Under the pieces are notes generated by a model. That model did no database searches, was not told the DNA's origin, and saw only the letters and a list, made by a program, of their open reading frames with translations. The translations under genes and the position numbers were made by a program. A stretch of DNA of 64,000 nucleotides, taken from contig CANIEM010000002.1 of the NCBI GenBank assembly GCA_947466515.1, positions 1 through 64,000 on the forward strand, given 5' to 3'. Source of the DNA: Verrucomicrobia subdivision 6 bacterium (GTDB taxonomy: Bacteria > Verrucomicrobiota > Verrucomicrobiia > Methylacidiphilales > Verrucolacustridaceae). Shown here one piece after another: positions 6,500 to 9,684 of the stretch (its first letter is position 1; each line of letters begins with the position of its first letter).

Positions 6500-7182
6500 A
6501 CACCTATCCGGATCACGCTCAGCGCGTCCGCCACCTCTTCGGCGAACTTGCTCCCTCCTACGACTTCCTTAACCGCCTTTTTAGCCTCGGACTCGATATC
6601 GGTTGGCGCAGGAAACTAGTCTCCTCCGTAGCCTCCCACCACCCACAGAAAATCCTCGATCTCGCTTGCGGATCAGGCGATGTCTCCCTCCTTCTTCAAA
6701 AAGCTCTTCCCACCGCAGAAATCATCGGCCTCGACTTCTCCCCCCCCTTACTCGCCCAAGCCAAGGCCCGCGGAGTCAAACAAACCATCGAAGGTGACGC
6801 CCTCCACCTGCCCTTCCCCAAAAACCATTTTTCCGCCGTCACCCTTGCCTTTGGCCTGCGCAACTTTGCTGACCGCGCTCGCGGGCTAAACGAGATTCAT
6901 CGAGTGCTGTCCCCAAACGGAATTTTCGCTCTTCTGGAATTTAGCCCACCACCCCTTCCCTGGAAACTTTTCTGGAATTTTTATCTATTCCACCTCATGC
7001 CTTGGGTCGCACAGCAGGTGGCGCAACAAGGTAACGCTTTCCGCTATCTCGCTAAAAGCATTTCTGAGTTCCCCACCCCACCAGCCCTCAACCAAGAACT
7101 ACAAACCTGTGGTCTCAAACTCCTCTCAACCCGCTCCATGTCCTTCGGCCTTGTCCGTCTCACCATCGCTCAAAAGTGTTAG
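6496..7182 (+). CDS. UbiE/MenG-type quinone methyltransferase, probable CTG start
   Basis: The reading frame encodes a class I SAM methyltransferase of the UbiE/MenG (demethylmenaquinone/ubiquinone) family. RVRHLFGELAPSYDFLNRLFS matches the family N-terminus, LDLACGSGDVSLLL is the SAM loop, GLRNFADRARGLNEIHRVL is the UbiE signature, and the end FRYLAKSISEFP is also typical. In this frame a stop at 6403-6405 is followed by no ATG, GTG or TTG before the conserved N-terminus. The only plausible start is CTG at 6496, whose CTGA contains the clpC stop. This gives 228 residues, normal for MenG. Only the menaquinone versus ubiquinone assignment is open. Confidence 0.85.
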   Translation: MNTYPDHAQRVRHLFGELAPSYDFLNRLFSLGLDIGWRRKLVSSVASHHPQKILDLACGSGDVSLLLQKALPTAEIIGLDFSPPLLAQAKARGVKQTIEGDALHLPFPKNHFSAVTLAFGLRNFADRARGLNEIHRVLSPNGIFALLEFSPPPLPWKLFWNFYLFHLMPWVAQQVAQQGNAFRYLAKSISEFPTPPALNQELQTCGLKLLSTRSMSFGLVRLTIAQKC

Positions 7183-7200
7183 CCTCCAGCTCTGGGATTT

Positions 7201-7550
7201 ATACCTTGGAGGTAATATATTTATAAATTGGAGATATGGGGATTGGTCCCCTTTGAAACTCGCCCCCAACCGATCCTTCTTTCGCCTCCGGCTAAAATAA
7301 TTTTATACCTTGGAGGTATGGGGATTGGTCCCCTTTGAAAACCGCCCCTGACCGATCCTTCTTTCGCCTCCGGCTAGAATGAATTTATACCTTGGAGGTA
7401 TGGGGATTGGTCCCCTTTGAAACCCACCCCTGACCGATCCTGCCTTCGCCTCCGGCTAAAATAATTTTATACCTTGGAGGTATGGGGATTGGTCCCCTTT
7501 GAAACCCGCCCCTGACCTATCCTTCTTTCGCCTCCGGCTAGAATGAATTT
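7201..7550 (-). repeat. 82-bp tandem array repeating the 3' end of the adjacent tRNA-Ala gene
   Basis: The sequence ATACCTTGGAGGTATGGGG begins at 7305, 7387 and 7469, and again at 7551 inside the tRNA gene, exactly 82 bases apart each time. A degenerate copy at 7201 carries about 22 extra bases. Read on the minus strand, every unit begins with the tRNA 3' acceptor strand, discriminator A and 3' half of the T stem, followed by a non-tRNA filler containing CCGGAGGCGAAAG. The units are nearly identical, differing at a few positions. The array lies directly downstream of the tRNA in its transcription direction. No credible protein is encoded. Confidence 0.9.
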
Positions 7551-7556
7551 ATACCT

Positions 7557-7629
7557 TGGAGGTATGGGGATTCGAACCCCAGACCTTCTCATTGCGAACG
7601 AGACGCTCTACCAACTGAGCTATACCCCC
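7557..7629 (-). tRNA. tRNA-Ala, anticodon CGC
   Basis: The 73-base minus-strand sequence folds as a complete tRNA. The acceptor stem is GGGGGTA with TACCTCC, the D arm contains GCTCAGTTGGTAGAGC, the anticodon loop is TTCGCAA (CGC, reading GCG), and the T arm is TGGGGTTCGAATCCCCA, followed by discriminator A. Position 3:70 is a G:U pair, the main alanine identity element. CCA is not encoded. It is 5' of the 82-bp array built from its own tail. Confidence 0.95.
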
Positions 7630-7640
7630 AATGATTCTCC

Positions 7641-7668
7641 ACTTTAAACTACAACCCCCCCATTTCAA
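7641..7668 (-). promoter_or_regulatory. Candidate promoter of the tRNA-Ala gene
   Basis: On the minus strand TTGAAA (7663-7668), a 16-base spacer and TAAAGT (7641-7646) lie 11 bases before the tRNA 5' end. The rest of 7669-7839 shows no gene; a GC-rich imperfect inverted repeat around 7730-7755 could help end rpoD transcription but lacks a clear T tract. Confidence 0.35.
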
Positions 7669-7839
7669 GCACCCAACACATCCAGCCACGAATTTGGGGT
7701 TACAGGTCGTTTCCTAAGAAAATCTAAGTCTCTAGCGCGTCGCGCGTGGACTTTAGCCCCTTACCCCCCTGTATTACCTTTCCGACCTTAGCGACCTTTG
7801 CGTGAGCAGTGTCTTTCCCGATCCAAAAAAACGTAACCC

Positions 7840-9684
7840 TTACAACTGATGTTCGTTTTCTAAAAACCCACGCAAATGCCGGATCCGCGTCGGATGACGC
7901 ATCTTTCTCAACGCCTTCGCCTCAATCTGCCGAATCCGCTCCCGCGTCACCTTAAATTGTCGCCCCACCTCCTCCAACGTCCGCGAATACCCGTCCACTA
8001 ACCCAAACCTTTGCTCCAACACCGCCCGCTCCCGATCCGTAAGACTATCCAACACATCCTTAATCTTCTCCTTCAACATCGAATACGCCGTCATGTCCGA
8101 AGGGTTCTCCGCACTCTTATCCTCAATGAAATCTCCAAAGGTCGTGTCGTCACTGTCTCCCACTTGGGCCTGCAGCGAAATCGGCTGTTGGGCCATTTTT
8201 AAAACCGCCCGCACCCGCTCCACTGGCATCCCCGTCTCATCCGCTACCTCCTCAGGCGTCGGCTCCCTCCCAAACTCCTGCACCAACTGCTTCTGCACCC
8301 GCATCAACTTATTAATCGTTTCAATCATGTGCACCGGAATACGAATCGTCCGCGCCTGATCCGCAATGCTCCGCGTGATCGCCTGCCGAATCCACCATGT
8401 CGCATAGGTCGAGAACTTATACCCTCTGCGGTATTCAAACTTCTCCACCGCCTTCATCAACCCCATATTCCCCTCTTGGATCAAATCTAAAAACGATAAG
8501 CCACGGTTGGTATATTTCTTCGCAATCGAAATCACCAACCGTAAATTCGCCTCGACCATTTCCGTCTTCGCTCGCATTGCCTTGCGCACCCACTCCCGCA
8601 AATCGCGGTGATGCGCAAAGAATTCTACCTGCGAGAGTCTCGACCCGTGCTCAATCTCCTCAATCTCCTCCTTGAGCGTTTTCCGCCTTCCCTCGTGCAC
8701 CCGACTGCGTGATTTCCCCTTAATCAACGCCTCCAATTCCGACGTCTTTTCCTGCAACTGCCGATGAACATTGTCCGAAACCAAAATAAATTCTTCCAAA
8801 ACCTTCTGCTTGAAAAAGAACTTTACGAAGAGTTTTTCCGCCGCCTCCTGCAGTTTGCCCAACTCGTTCGCCACCCGATGCCGCGCCACCGCCGATTTTG
8901 CATCCGCCACTCGGGCGTACACCTTGTGCGCCTTCTCGTGCGTCGCATGCAACTGCTTCACCAAGCTCTTCAACATCGTCATGTACTTTTCCCGACCCTC
9001 AATCTTTTTATCCTGAATCACCCGATCAAAACGTTCCCGCGAGTTTAGCAATTTCTCTCCAAGCGAGATATACTCCTTGGCGATAAACCCAAACTTGTGC
9101 AAATGCACCACCGCCCCGATATCCGACTCCTCAATCCGCTTCGAAATCTCCACCTCCTGCTCTCTGGTTAAAAGCGGGACTTGCCCCATTTGCCGCAAAT
9201 ACATCCGTACGGGGTCATCCAGAATATCCAGCTTCTCTGGTTTTTCTTCTGCCACCACGATCTCACTGCCATCTTCTTCGCGAGCCGGTTTCTTATACCG
9301 ATCAACTTCACTCGCCTCGATTACATCGATTTCGAAATTCCGTAAGAAAATCAGTACCGCTTCCACCTGCTCAGGCTTCGTCACCGTCTCGGGCAAAGCT
9401 TCATGCAAATCATCGTGCGTCAGATAACCCTGTTCCCGCGCCAACTTGATCAACTCCCGCAACCGCTCCTGCTTTTCTGGACTCTGCGCCCAAATCCCTA
9501 ATCCATTGTTTTCTGTCGTCGGAGAACCATTCAGCGCTTCTTTTGCTTCAATCTCCGCTGCCGCCAACTCAGCTGCCGACGGCTCATCCGGAGAGACCGC
9601 CGCCTCCACCTTTCCTTTTATCTTGGCGCGGGTTGCGGGCAACTTAGGCGACTTACTCGCCTTGCTTTTCGTGATCTTTTTCAT
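7840..9684 (-). CDS. rpoD: RNA polymerase primary sigma factor RpoD
   Basis: This is a 614-residue sigma-70. A Lys-rich N-terminus is followed by a region-1.1-like segment (about residues 68-130), region 1.2 [11 protein letters not shown] at about 157, a charged non-conserved insert, region 2 ([20 protein letters not shown] and [10 protein letters not shown], about 375-450), region 3, and region 4.2 with [20 protein letters not shown] at about 569. This is the full domain set of a housekeeping sigma rather than an alternative sigma. dnaG is 46 bases upstream on the same strand, a remnant of the rpsU-dnaG-rpoD macromolecular synthesis arrangement without rpsU. Confidence 0.97.

Follow-up and report, generated by a model that had tools for sequence, protein, structure and literature searches.

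To our knowledge, the rtT repeats of Escherichia coli are an oddity, represented by essentially one well-known case, and their origin and role have not been agreed upon. Rechecking the K-12 genome (NC_000913.3), we found that TRF reports a 178 bp repeat in 3.1 copies downstream of tyrV, overlapping the annotated rttR and tpr. In the tail copies GAGT is joined to AATCCTTCCCCCACCA, as compared to TTCG joined to AATCCTTCCCCCACCA in the tRNA, which places the start of the copy at A58, and every full unit contains GGGGAAGGAT, which is part of the tail in reverse complement. In the same region (L264, 1286500-1287800) an extra tail copy, also from A58, lies in the tyrT-tyrV spacer. In a 2025 survey, rttR is listed with the small RNAs that contain REP sequences (PMC12306157). 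Some casposons, too, target the 3' end of tRNA genes, integrating there with a target-site duplication (PMC6614799).

The tRNA-Ala(CGC) gene described here lies on the minus strand of a 64,000-nucleotide stretch of DNA, the whole of which we refer to as the window. Downstream in transcription, toward lower coordinates, it is followed by a tandem array of copies of its own tail, with the following features:

7641-7668, minus strand: promoter-like site TTGAAA-16-TAAAGT ahead of tRNA-Ala(CGC), by consensus match only, such matches being about as frequent as chance expects.
7557-7629, minus strand: tRNA-Ala(CGC), called by ARAGORN and Rfam RF00005 (70.9 bits).
7551-7565, minus strand: hairpin H2 (tail ATACCT, loop CCA, AGGTAT directly after A73), from the sequence.
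7530-7538, minus strand: hairpin H1 of unit 1, GCC-GGA-GGC (also at 7448-7456, 7366-7374 and 7284-7292), from covariation.
7486-7522, minus strand: core stem of unit 1, GGATAGGTC (7514-7522) pairing with GACCAATCC (7486-7494) around a G-rich loop, from covariation.
7475-7556, minus strand: unit 1, a 66-nt filler plus an exact tail copy at 7475-7490, from repeat alignment.
7393-7474, minus strand: unit 2, filler plus an exact tail copy at 7393-7408, from repeat alignment.
7311-7392, minus strand: unit 3, filler plus an exact tail copy at 7311-7326, from repeat alignment.
7229-7310, minus strand: unit 4, filler plus a tail copy with one mismatch at 7229-7244, from repeat alignment.
7182-7228, minus strand: a fifth unit, degenerate and truncated, ending at an H1 relic, from sequence, with similar units in G001, G003 and G014.

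The original prediction had claimed that the tail of tRNA-Ala(CGC) recurs every 82 bases. This is confirmed: the repeat analysis gave a period of 82 with 4.4 copies, 90% matches, 0% indels and a score of 592, which no other tandem array in the whole window came near, and four 164-nt copies aligned at a spacing of exactly 82. The array of tail copies beside the tRNA is thus real, and its orientation alone had to be corrected, as it lies downstream of the gene on the minus strand. The tRNA gene lacks an encoded CCA, its tail A58-A73 corresponding to 7557-7572. The 25-mer AATCCCCATACCTCCAAGGTATAAA, comprising these 16 nt and 9 flanking nt, occurs exactly at 7548-7572 (the tRNA itself), 7466-7490, 7384-7408 and 7302-7326; the three exact tail copies share with the tRNA the same nine bases after the tail. 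A fragment, TACCTCCAAGGTATAAA, is found at 7198-7214, and GGGGACCAATCC(CC) is present at every unit end, as had been stated. The 82-bp tRNA-tail array is far beyond chance. Its far end is bordered by a convergent methyltransferase gene, ubiE/menG-like by sequence, whose stop codon abuts the H1 relic of the truncated fifth unit (window 7180-7190); in G001 and G003 the truncated unit likewise stops at a convergent methyltransferase gene. No intrinsic terminator was called inside the array, and with the Rfam covariance models, run over 6500-8500, the tRNA alone scored above the gathering threshold, the array matching no known RNA family. Searching for the 82-bp unit at tRNA-Ala in related genomes, as originally proposed, recovered arrays in seven further members of the genus, each with a genome assembled separately, and the array is therefore not an assembly quirk. 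These arrays hold 1-4 full units, with the proviso that this freshwater genus is known from metagenome assemblies, many of them incomplete, and per-locus copy numbers are possibly wrong in some.

The proposed analogy with E. coli tyrT and rtT was right and proved even closer than supposed: as in rttR at tyrT/tyrV, tandem units lie downstream of a tRNA, the tail copy runs from the same A58 start past the tRNA end, and the filler contains a reverse complement of part of the tail. The two systems differ in unit length (178 in E. coli rttR vs 82 at tRNA-Ala(CGC)), and their fillers look unrelated by eye. Whereas the E. coli repeats carry an annotated sRNA and a small ORF, the units of the genus are known from DNA sequence alone; unlike rttR, they occur at ten host tRNA species and have empty sites. 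Judged by these comparisons, the architecture is common to both, the sequence, as far as seen, is not, and common descent is not supported.

What did not hold was the idea of a single independent analogue, as the tRNA-Ala(CGC) array is one locus of a genus-wide family found at ten tRNA species. BLAST of the array against its own genome located the filler behind tRNA-Gly(GCC), tRNA-Pro(CGG) and tRNA-Pro(TGG), and BLAST over 40 genomes located it in 15, every one of the same genus. A covariance model of the core, built from copies found by similarity to the tRNA-Ala(CGC) array and hence liable to miss distant relatives, matched in all 21 genomes of the genus (Verrucomicrobia subdivision 6, BACL9-type), with more than 200 matches across them, and in none of 41 genomes from other genera of the order. 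Scanning 84,980 GTDB genomes with a strict pattern returned 19 stretches, all from metagenome-assembled Verrucomicrobia records and most labelled subdivision 6, BACL9 among them. The strict core pattern had no match in IMG/VR, and a 'distant' blastn search against phages gave tRNA-gene matches only among the best places listed (query about 2-84); a phage origin of the units was rejected on these grounds. No description of such repeats was found in the literature searched, largely outside subscription papers, and this genus-wide family of hairpin repeats with host tRNA tails is apparently undescribed.

The association of the family with tRNA genes is strongly directional. Among the 150 best matches, 93 follow a complete tRNA at a distance of 6-330 nt on its own strand and 4 are downstream on the opposite one, so that 93 of the 97 tRNA-linked matches are same-strand; the remainder sit at contig ends, beside displaced tRNA tails, or dispersed. 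Opposite-strand tRNA-linked copies were seen only at L008, L189, L191, L193 and L225, behind tRNA-Gly(TCC) or near tRNA-Arg, where the units run opposite to the tRNA and often form inverted groups. The hosts among the best 150 matches are only ten: Ala (CGC, GGC), Gly (GCC), Leu (CAG, GAG), Pro (CGG, GGG, TGG) and Ser (CGA, GGA). All ten carry AATCC at positions 58-62; nevertheless, many tRNAs with AATCC are non-hosts. A tail copy is present at 50 of 117 distinct tRNA loci examined, where it matches its own tRNA's tail at 10-12 of 12 positions, as compared to an average of about 7 for tails belonging to other amino acids; at Ser(CGA), and at some of the Pro loci, it is worn down to about ten bases. 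One of the 50 is a tRNA-Lys(CTT) (L023, G000:C28) with an 11/12 tail copy about 80 nt behind the tRNA and the typical filler missing, which represents either a decayed unit or a classical attachment remnant. In the window's genome, 7 of about 10 separate loci lie behind tRNAs, compared to 0.3% of strand positions (P about 7e-16).

In our estimate the chances are about even that these units are an old, roughly 60-bp REP/MITE-like hairpin family, restricted to the genus, whose entry into tRNA 3' ends and into a few terminators duplicated the tail and was followed by tandem expansion. One filler recurs behind several tRNAs, combined each time with the tail of the host, and the loci are concentrated behind tRNAs; both speak for such an element origin. 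The units also resemble REP, BIME and MITE sequences in being short, imperfect intergenic palindromes, dispersed in many copies, some of them inverted pairs. They differ from REP/BIME in their strong tie to tRNA 3' ends with tail duplication, and in not being found beside the RAYT-like genes of the genus, whose own palindromes are different.

Read in the direction of the tRNA, a unit consists of (a) a short reverse complement of the host tail, which forms hairpin H2 with the tail, (b) a segment rich in A and T, (c) hairpin H1, in most cases GCC-GGA-GGC, (d) a linker rich in purines, (e) the core, GGATnGGYC, a G-rich loop and GRCCAATCC, and (f) the tail copy, whose first bases double as the 3' arm of the core stem, an overlap also seen in unit 1. 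H2 recurs after every exact tail copy, and the other host tRNAs have corresponding palindromes. Because their loop length ranges from 3 to about 20 nt, H2 is not a fixed core, and the palindrome was rejected as a recombinase core. The inner core stem varies between GGTC/GACC and GGCC/GGCC, and by eye also GCGC/GCGC and GATC/GATC. The outer arm matches the tail of its host, with GGAT and ATCC in Ala and Gly, GATT and AATC in Ser and Leu, and GAAT and ATTC in the non-tRNA array L096. In an alignment of 145 distinct sequences, itself fitted to the covariance model (and refitted after a first version that was imperfect at the 3' stem), both sides change in 9 of 11 pairs of H1 and the core stem, giving a covariation score of 0.347 vs 0.113 for shuffled sequences and at most 0.062 with the partner slid.

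These stems bear on the main rival, which takes up the small-RNA precursor originally suggested: the units would form a structured 3' trailer that has been kept, made in one transcript with the tRNA and excised as putative small RNAs like rtT/RttR, with tail copies and hairpins preserved for an RNA role. We consider this explanation unlikely but a serious contender, as H1 and the core stem covary, the tRNA-linked matches are almost all same-strand and downstream, and E. coli provides a precedent with the same A58 boundary. However, stems can also arise and be repaired through template switching during replication (PMC8794818), for which reason covariation alone is not decisive; the same process would also account for H2 and the core arm matching each host tRNA. 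Nor is a single unit unusually stable, either as RNA (z -1.3) or as DNA. The whole 431-nt RNA has a low folding energy (z -3.4), which may be owed to the complementary repeats. A different RNA-level role had been suggested in the form of a tRNA decoy for 3'-end processing enzymes. This proposal is not supported, because no copy has the acceptor 5' strand and an acceptor/T-arm minihelix cannot form from the tRNA sequence; moreover, when the tRNA was folded together with part of the trailer, the acceptor, anticodon and T stems remained paired.

Comparing orthologous sites, we found that filled and empty loci differ by whole units exactly. At tRNA-Ala(GGC), the empty site of G016 reads ...CCATGGCTCCA joined to AGTATGAATCGTTG, and the filled site of G013 contains two units, ending in ...CCATGGCTCCA joined to AGAATGAATCGTTG; the difference thus amounts to two whole units, with A58-A73 as the repeated segment. 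At tRNA-Ala(CGC), G010 is empty and the other genomes hold 1-4 full units, often with a truncated unit next to them. The exact pair G013/G016 and the empty G010 argue for an element origin; against it, insertion and precise deletion between direct repeats give the same pattern, and the pairs fit both equally well. For the trailer RNA, it is the absence or truncation of units at the same tRNA in several species that counts as adverse.

The relationships among units indicate long residence at each tRNA. When a unit is compared with those on other contigs, its nearest neighbour belongs to the same tRNA in 72% of cases (10% with shuffled labels) and to the same genome in 1%, and identity falls from 86% within a locus to 74% at the same tRNA in other genomes and 65% at other tRNAs of the same genome. 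Accordingly, the units settled at each tRNA before most species splits, were then inherited, and were homogenised within arrays. The within-array identity and the same-tRNA neighbours fit an element origin; yet the units hardly move between tRNAs within a genome now, so that any mobility would be ancient. A passive duplication confined to the locus, in which the tRNA 3' end was repeated in tandem and nothing more, would agree with the free variation of copy number among relatives and the homogenised units within a locus, but we regard it as very improbable, given that the same filler occurs at ten tRNA species whose tails differ, throughout 21 genomes and with covarying stems. It is refuted as the whole story and survives solely as the expansion step.

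In most pairs the units are also more strongly conserved than the 65 nt lying beyond the array (random baseline 0.56), at loci that were selected for a detectable unit. The values are 0.77 vs 0.63 for Ala(CGC), with units ahead in 21 of 21 pairs, 0.81 vs 0.67 for Leu(CAG), and merely 0.58 vs 0.54 for Ser(GGA). This conservation and the vertical inheritance alongside the tRNA favour the trailer RNA; the conservation also weighs against an element origin, as it exceeds what a dead insertion predicts.

Copies away from tRNAs point in the other direction. At L096, L208, L209, L227 and L231, tandem unit arrays stand at protein-gene terminators, the left arm of the terminator being duplicated; L096 has up to about eight tandem copies, and at L227 a direct repeat of about 27 bp, equal to the terminator's left arm, brackets two units. 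The direct repeats that flank single dispersed copies measure about 4-15 bp and exceed those of mismatched pairs in length (permutation p 0.006, n=10), and in some cases copies are joined by their tails into inverted pairs, in BIME fashion. The direct repeats and inverted pairs point to insertion with target duplication, in few cases, and support an element origin, with the reservation that the repeats at dispersed copies vary in length; both the terminator copies and the inverted pairs are difficult for a tRNA trailer. A candidate for a longer, autonomous version, a repeated pair in G004:C137 flanking toxin-antitoxin-like genes, was dismissed, as it looks like a segmental duplication.

No genes lie within the units, and candidate mobilisers were sought elsewhere in the genus. 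Cas1 was found in none of the 21 genomes, with control genomes positive, and a Cas1/casposase origin was rejected; the geneless units of a genus without Cas1 are in this respect unlike casposons. Y1 transposases are present in 10 of the 21 genomes, and that of the window's genome resembles REP-associated tyrosine transposases, below the family cut-off. A RAYT-like Y1 gene at L250 (G000:C22, 229-828) is preceded by a palindrome of its own, GGTGTCAGACACGTGTCTGACACC, and related Y1 genes in the other genomes carry other palindromes. At the eight loci examined, units gave no significant match near Y1 genes (best E 0.94), and the palindromes flanking these genes differ from the tRNA-tail units, on which grounds RAYT mobilisation by adjacency was discarded. 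The lack of a linked mobilising enzyme, with no Cas1 and no unit near the Y1 genes examined, speaks against an element origin.

Tyrosine integrases are found in 19 of the 21 genomes. tRNA-Ser(CGA) is an integration site in the genus (L101 at G000:C44:18500-20558, L002 in G000:C46, L064, L086 and L202). In the window's genome it is followed by an integrase-like gene; G005, G012 and G017 contain a homologous integrative element whose end meets a displaced Ser tail at TTTCAAATCCC, with units beyond. The integrative elements of the genus thus use the same tail segment of tRNA-Ser as the units do. The tail copies might accordingly be att cores left by repeated integration and excision, or extra att sites, making the units integrase scars or minimal satellites. 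Like tRNA-targeting tyrosine recombinase elements, the units involve a direct repeat that begins in the T-loop, reaches the 3' end of the tRNA and keeps the tRNA intact, and the original idea of a landing-site remnant was supported in so far as the segment duplicated is about as extensive as an integrase core and an integrative element really does use tRNA-Ser(CGA). It did not extend to the filler, whose core has no IMG/VR match at the pattern used. Unlike such elements, the units have a structured filler of about 60 bp, are geneless, form many tandem copies and occur at terminators too. A single conserved, structured filler at ten tRNAs, a unit length of about 80 bp that is too short for an ordinary excised circle, and T-loop bases that differ between the tRNA (TTCGAAT) and the unit (GACCAAT) make this explanation quite improbable.

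At the filled sites, the extra stretch begins directly after discriminator A73 and ends with a new tRNA copy from T-loop base 57/58 to A73, which leaves the tRNA gene intact and makes each unit bear its host's tail. For the preferred reading, a REP/MITE-like family that entered tRNA 3' ends, the following course may be proposed. Insertion at the tRNA 3' end would have duplicated the tail, similar to a target duplication, and the tail copies could then have provided the homology by which units were gained and lost in tandem (0-4 full units at tRNA-Ala(CGC) in the genus). The hairpin arms may have been matched to each host tRNA by replication template switching, by selection on the folded strand, or by both. 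A bolder version, which we hold to be doubtful, is that tiny mobile hairpins target tRNA 3' ends by A58-A73 duplication, rebuilding the tRNA and adopting its tail and hairpin arm, through an undescribed enzyme, and that E. coli rtT would be an independent product of a like process.

A family that spans 21 genomes and ten tRNA hosts, and that offers both empty sites and copies away from tRNAs, makes the rtT oddity a comparative problem, in which one can ask which boundary is fixed (A58/A73), what is inherited and what covaries. If the units are mobile now, or once were, they would illustrate how a tiny, geneless DNA can exploit the 3' ends of tRNAs; should they be retained as RNA, they would be a pointer to a class of tRNA trailer RNAs.
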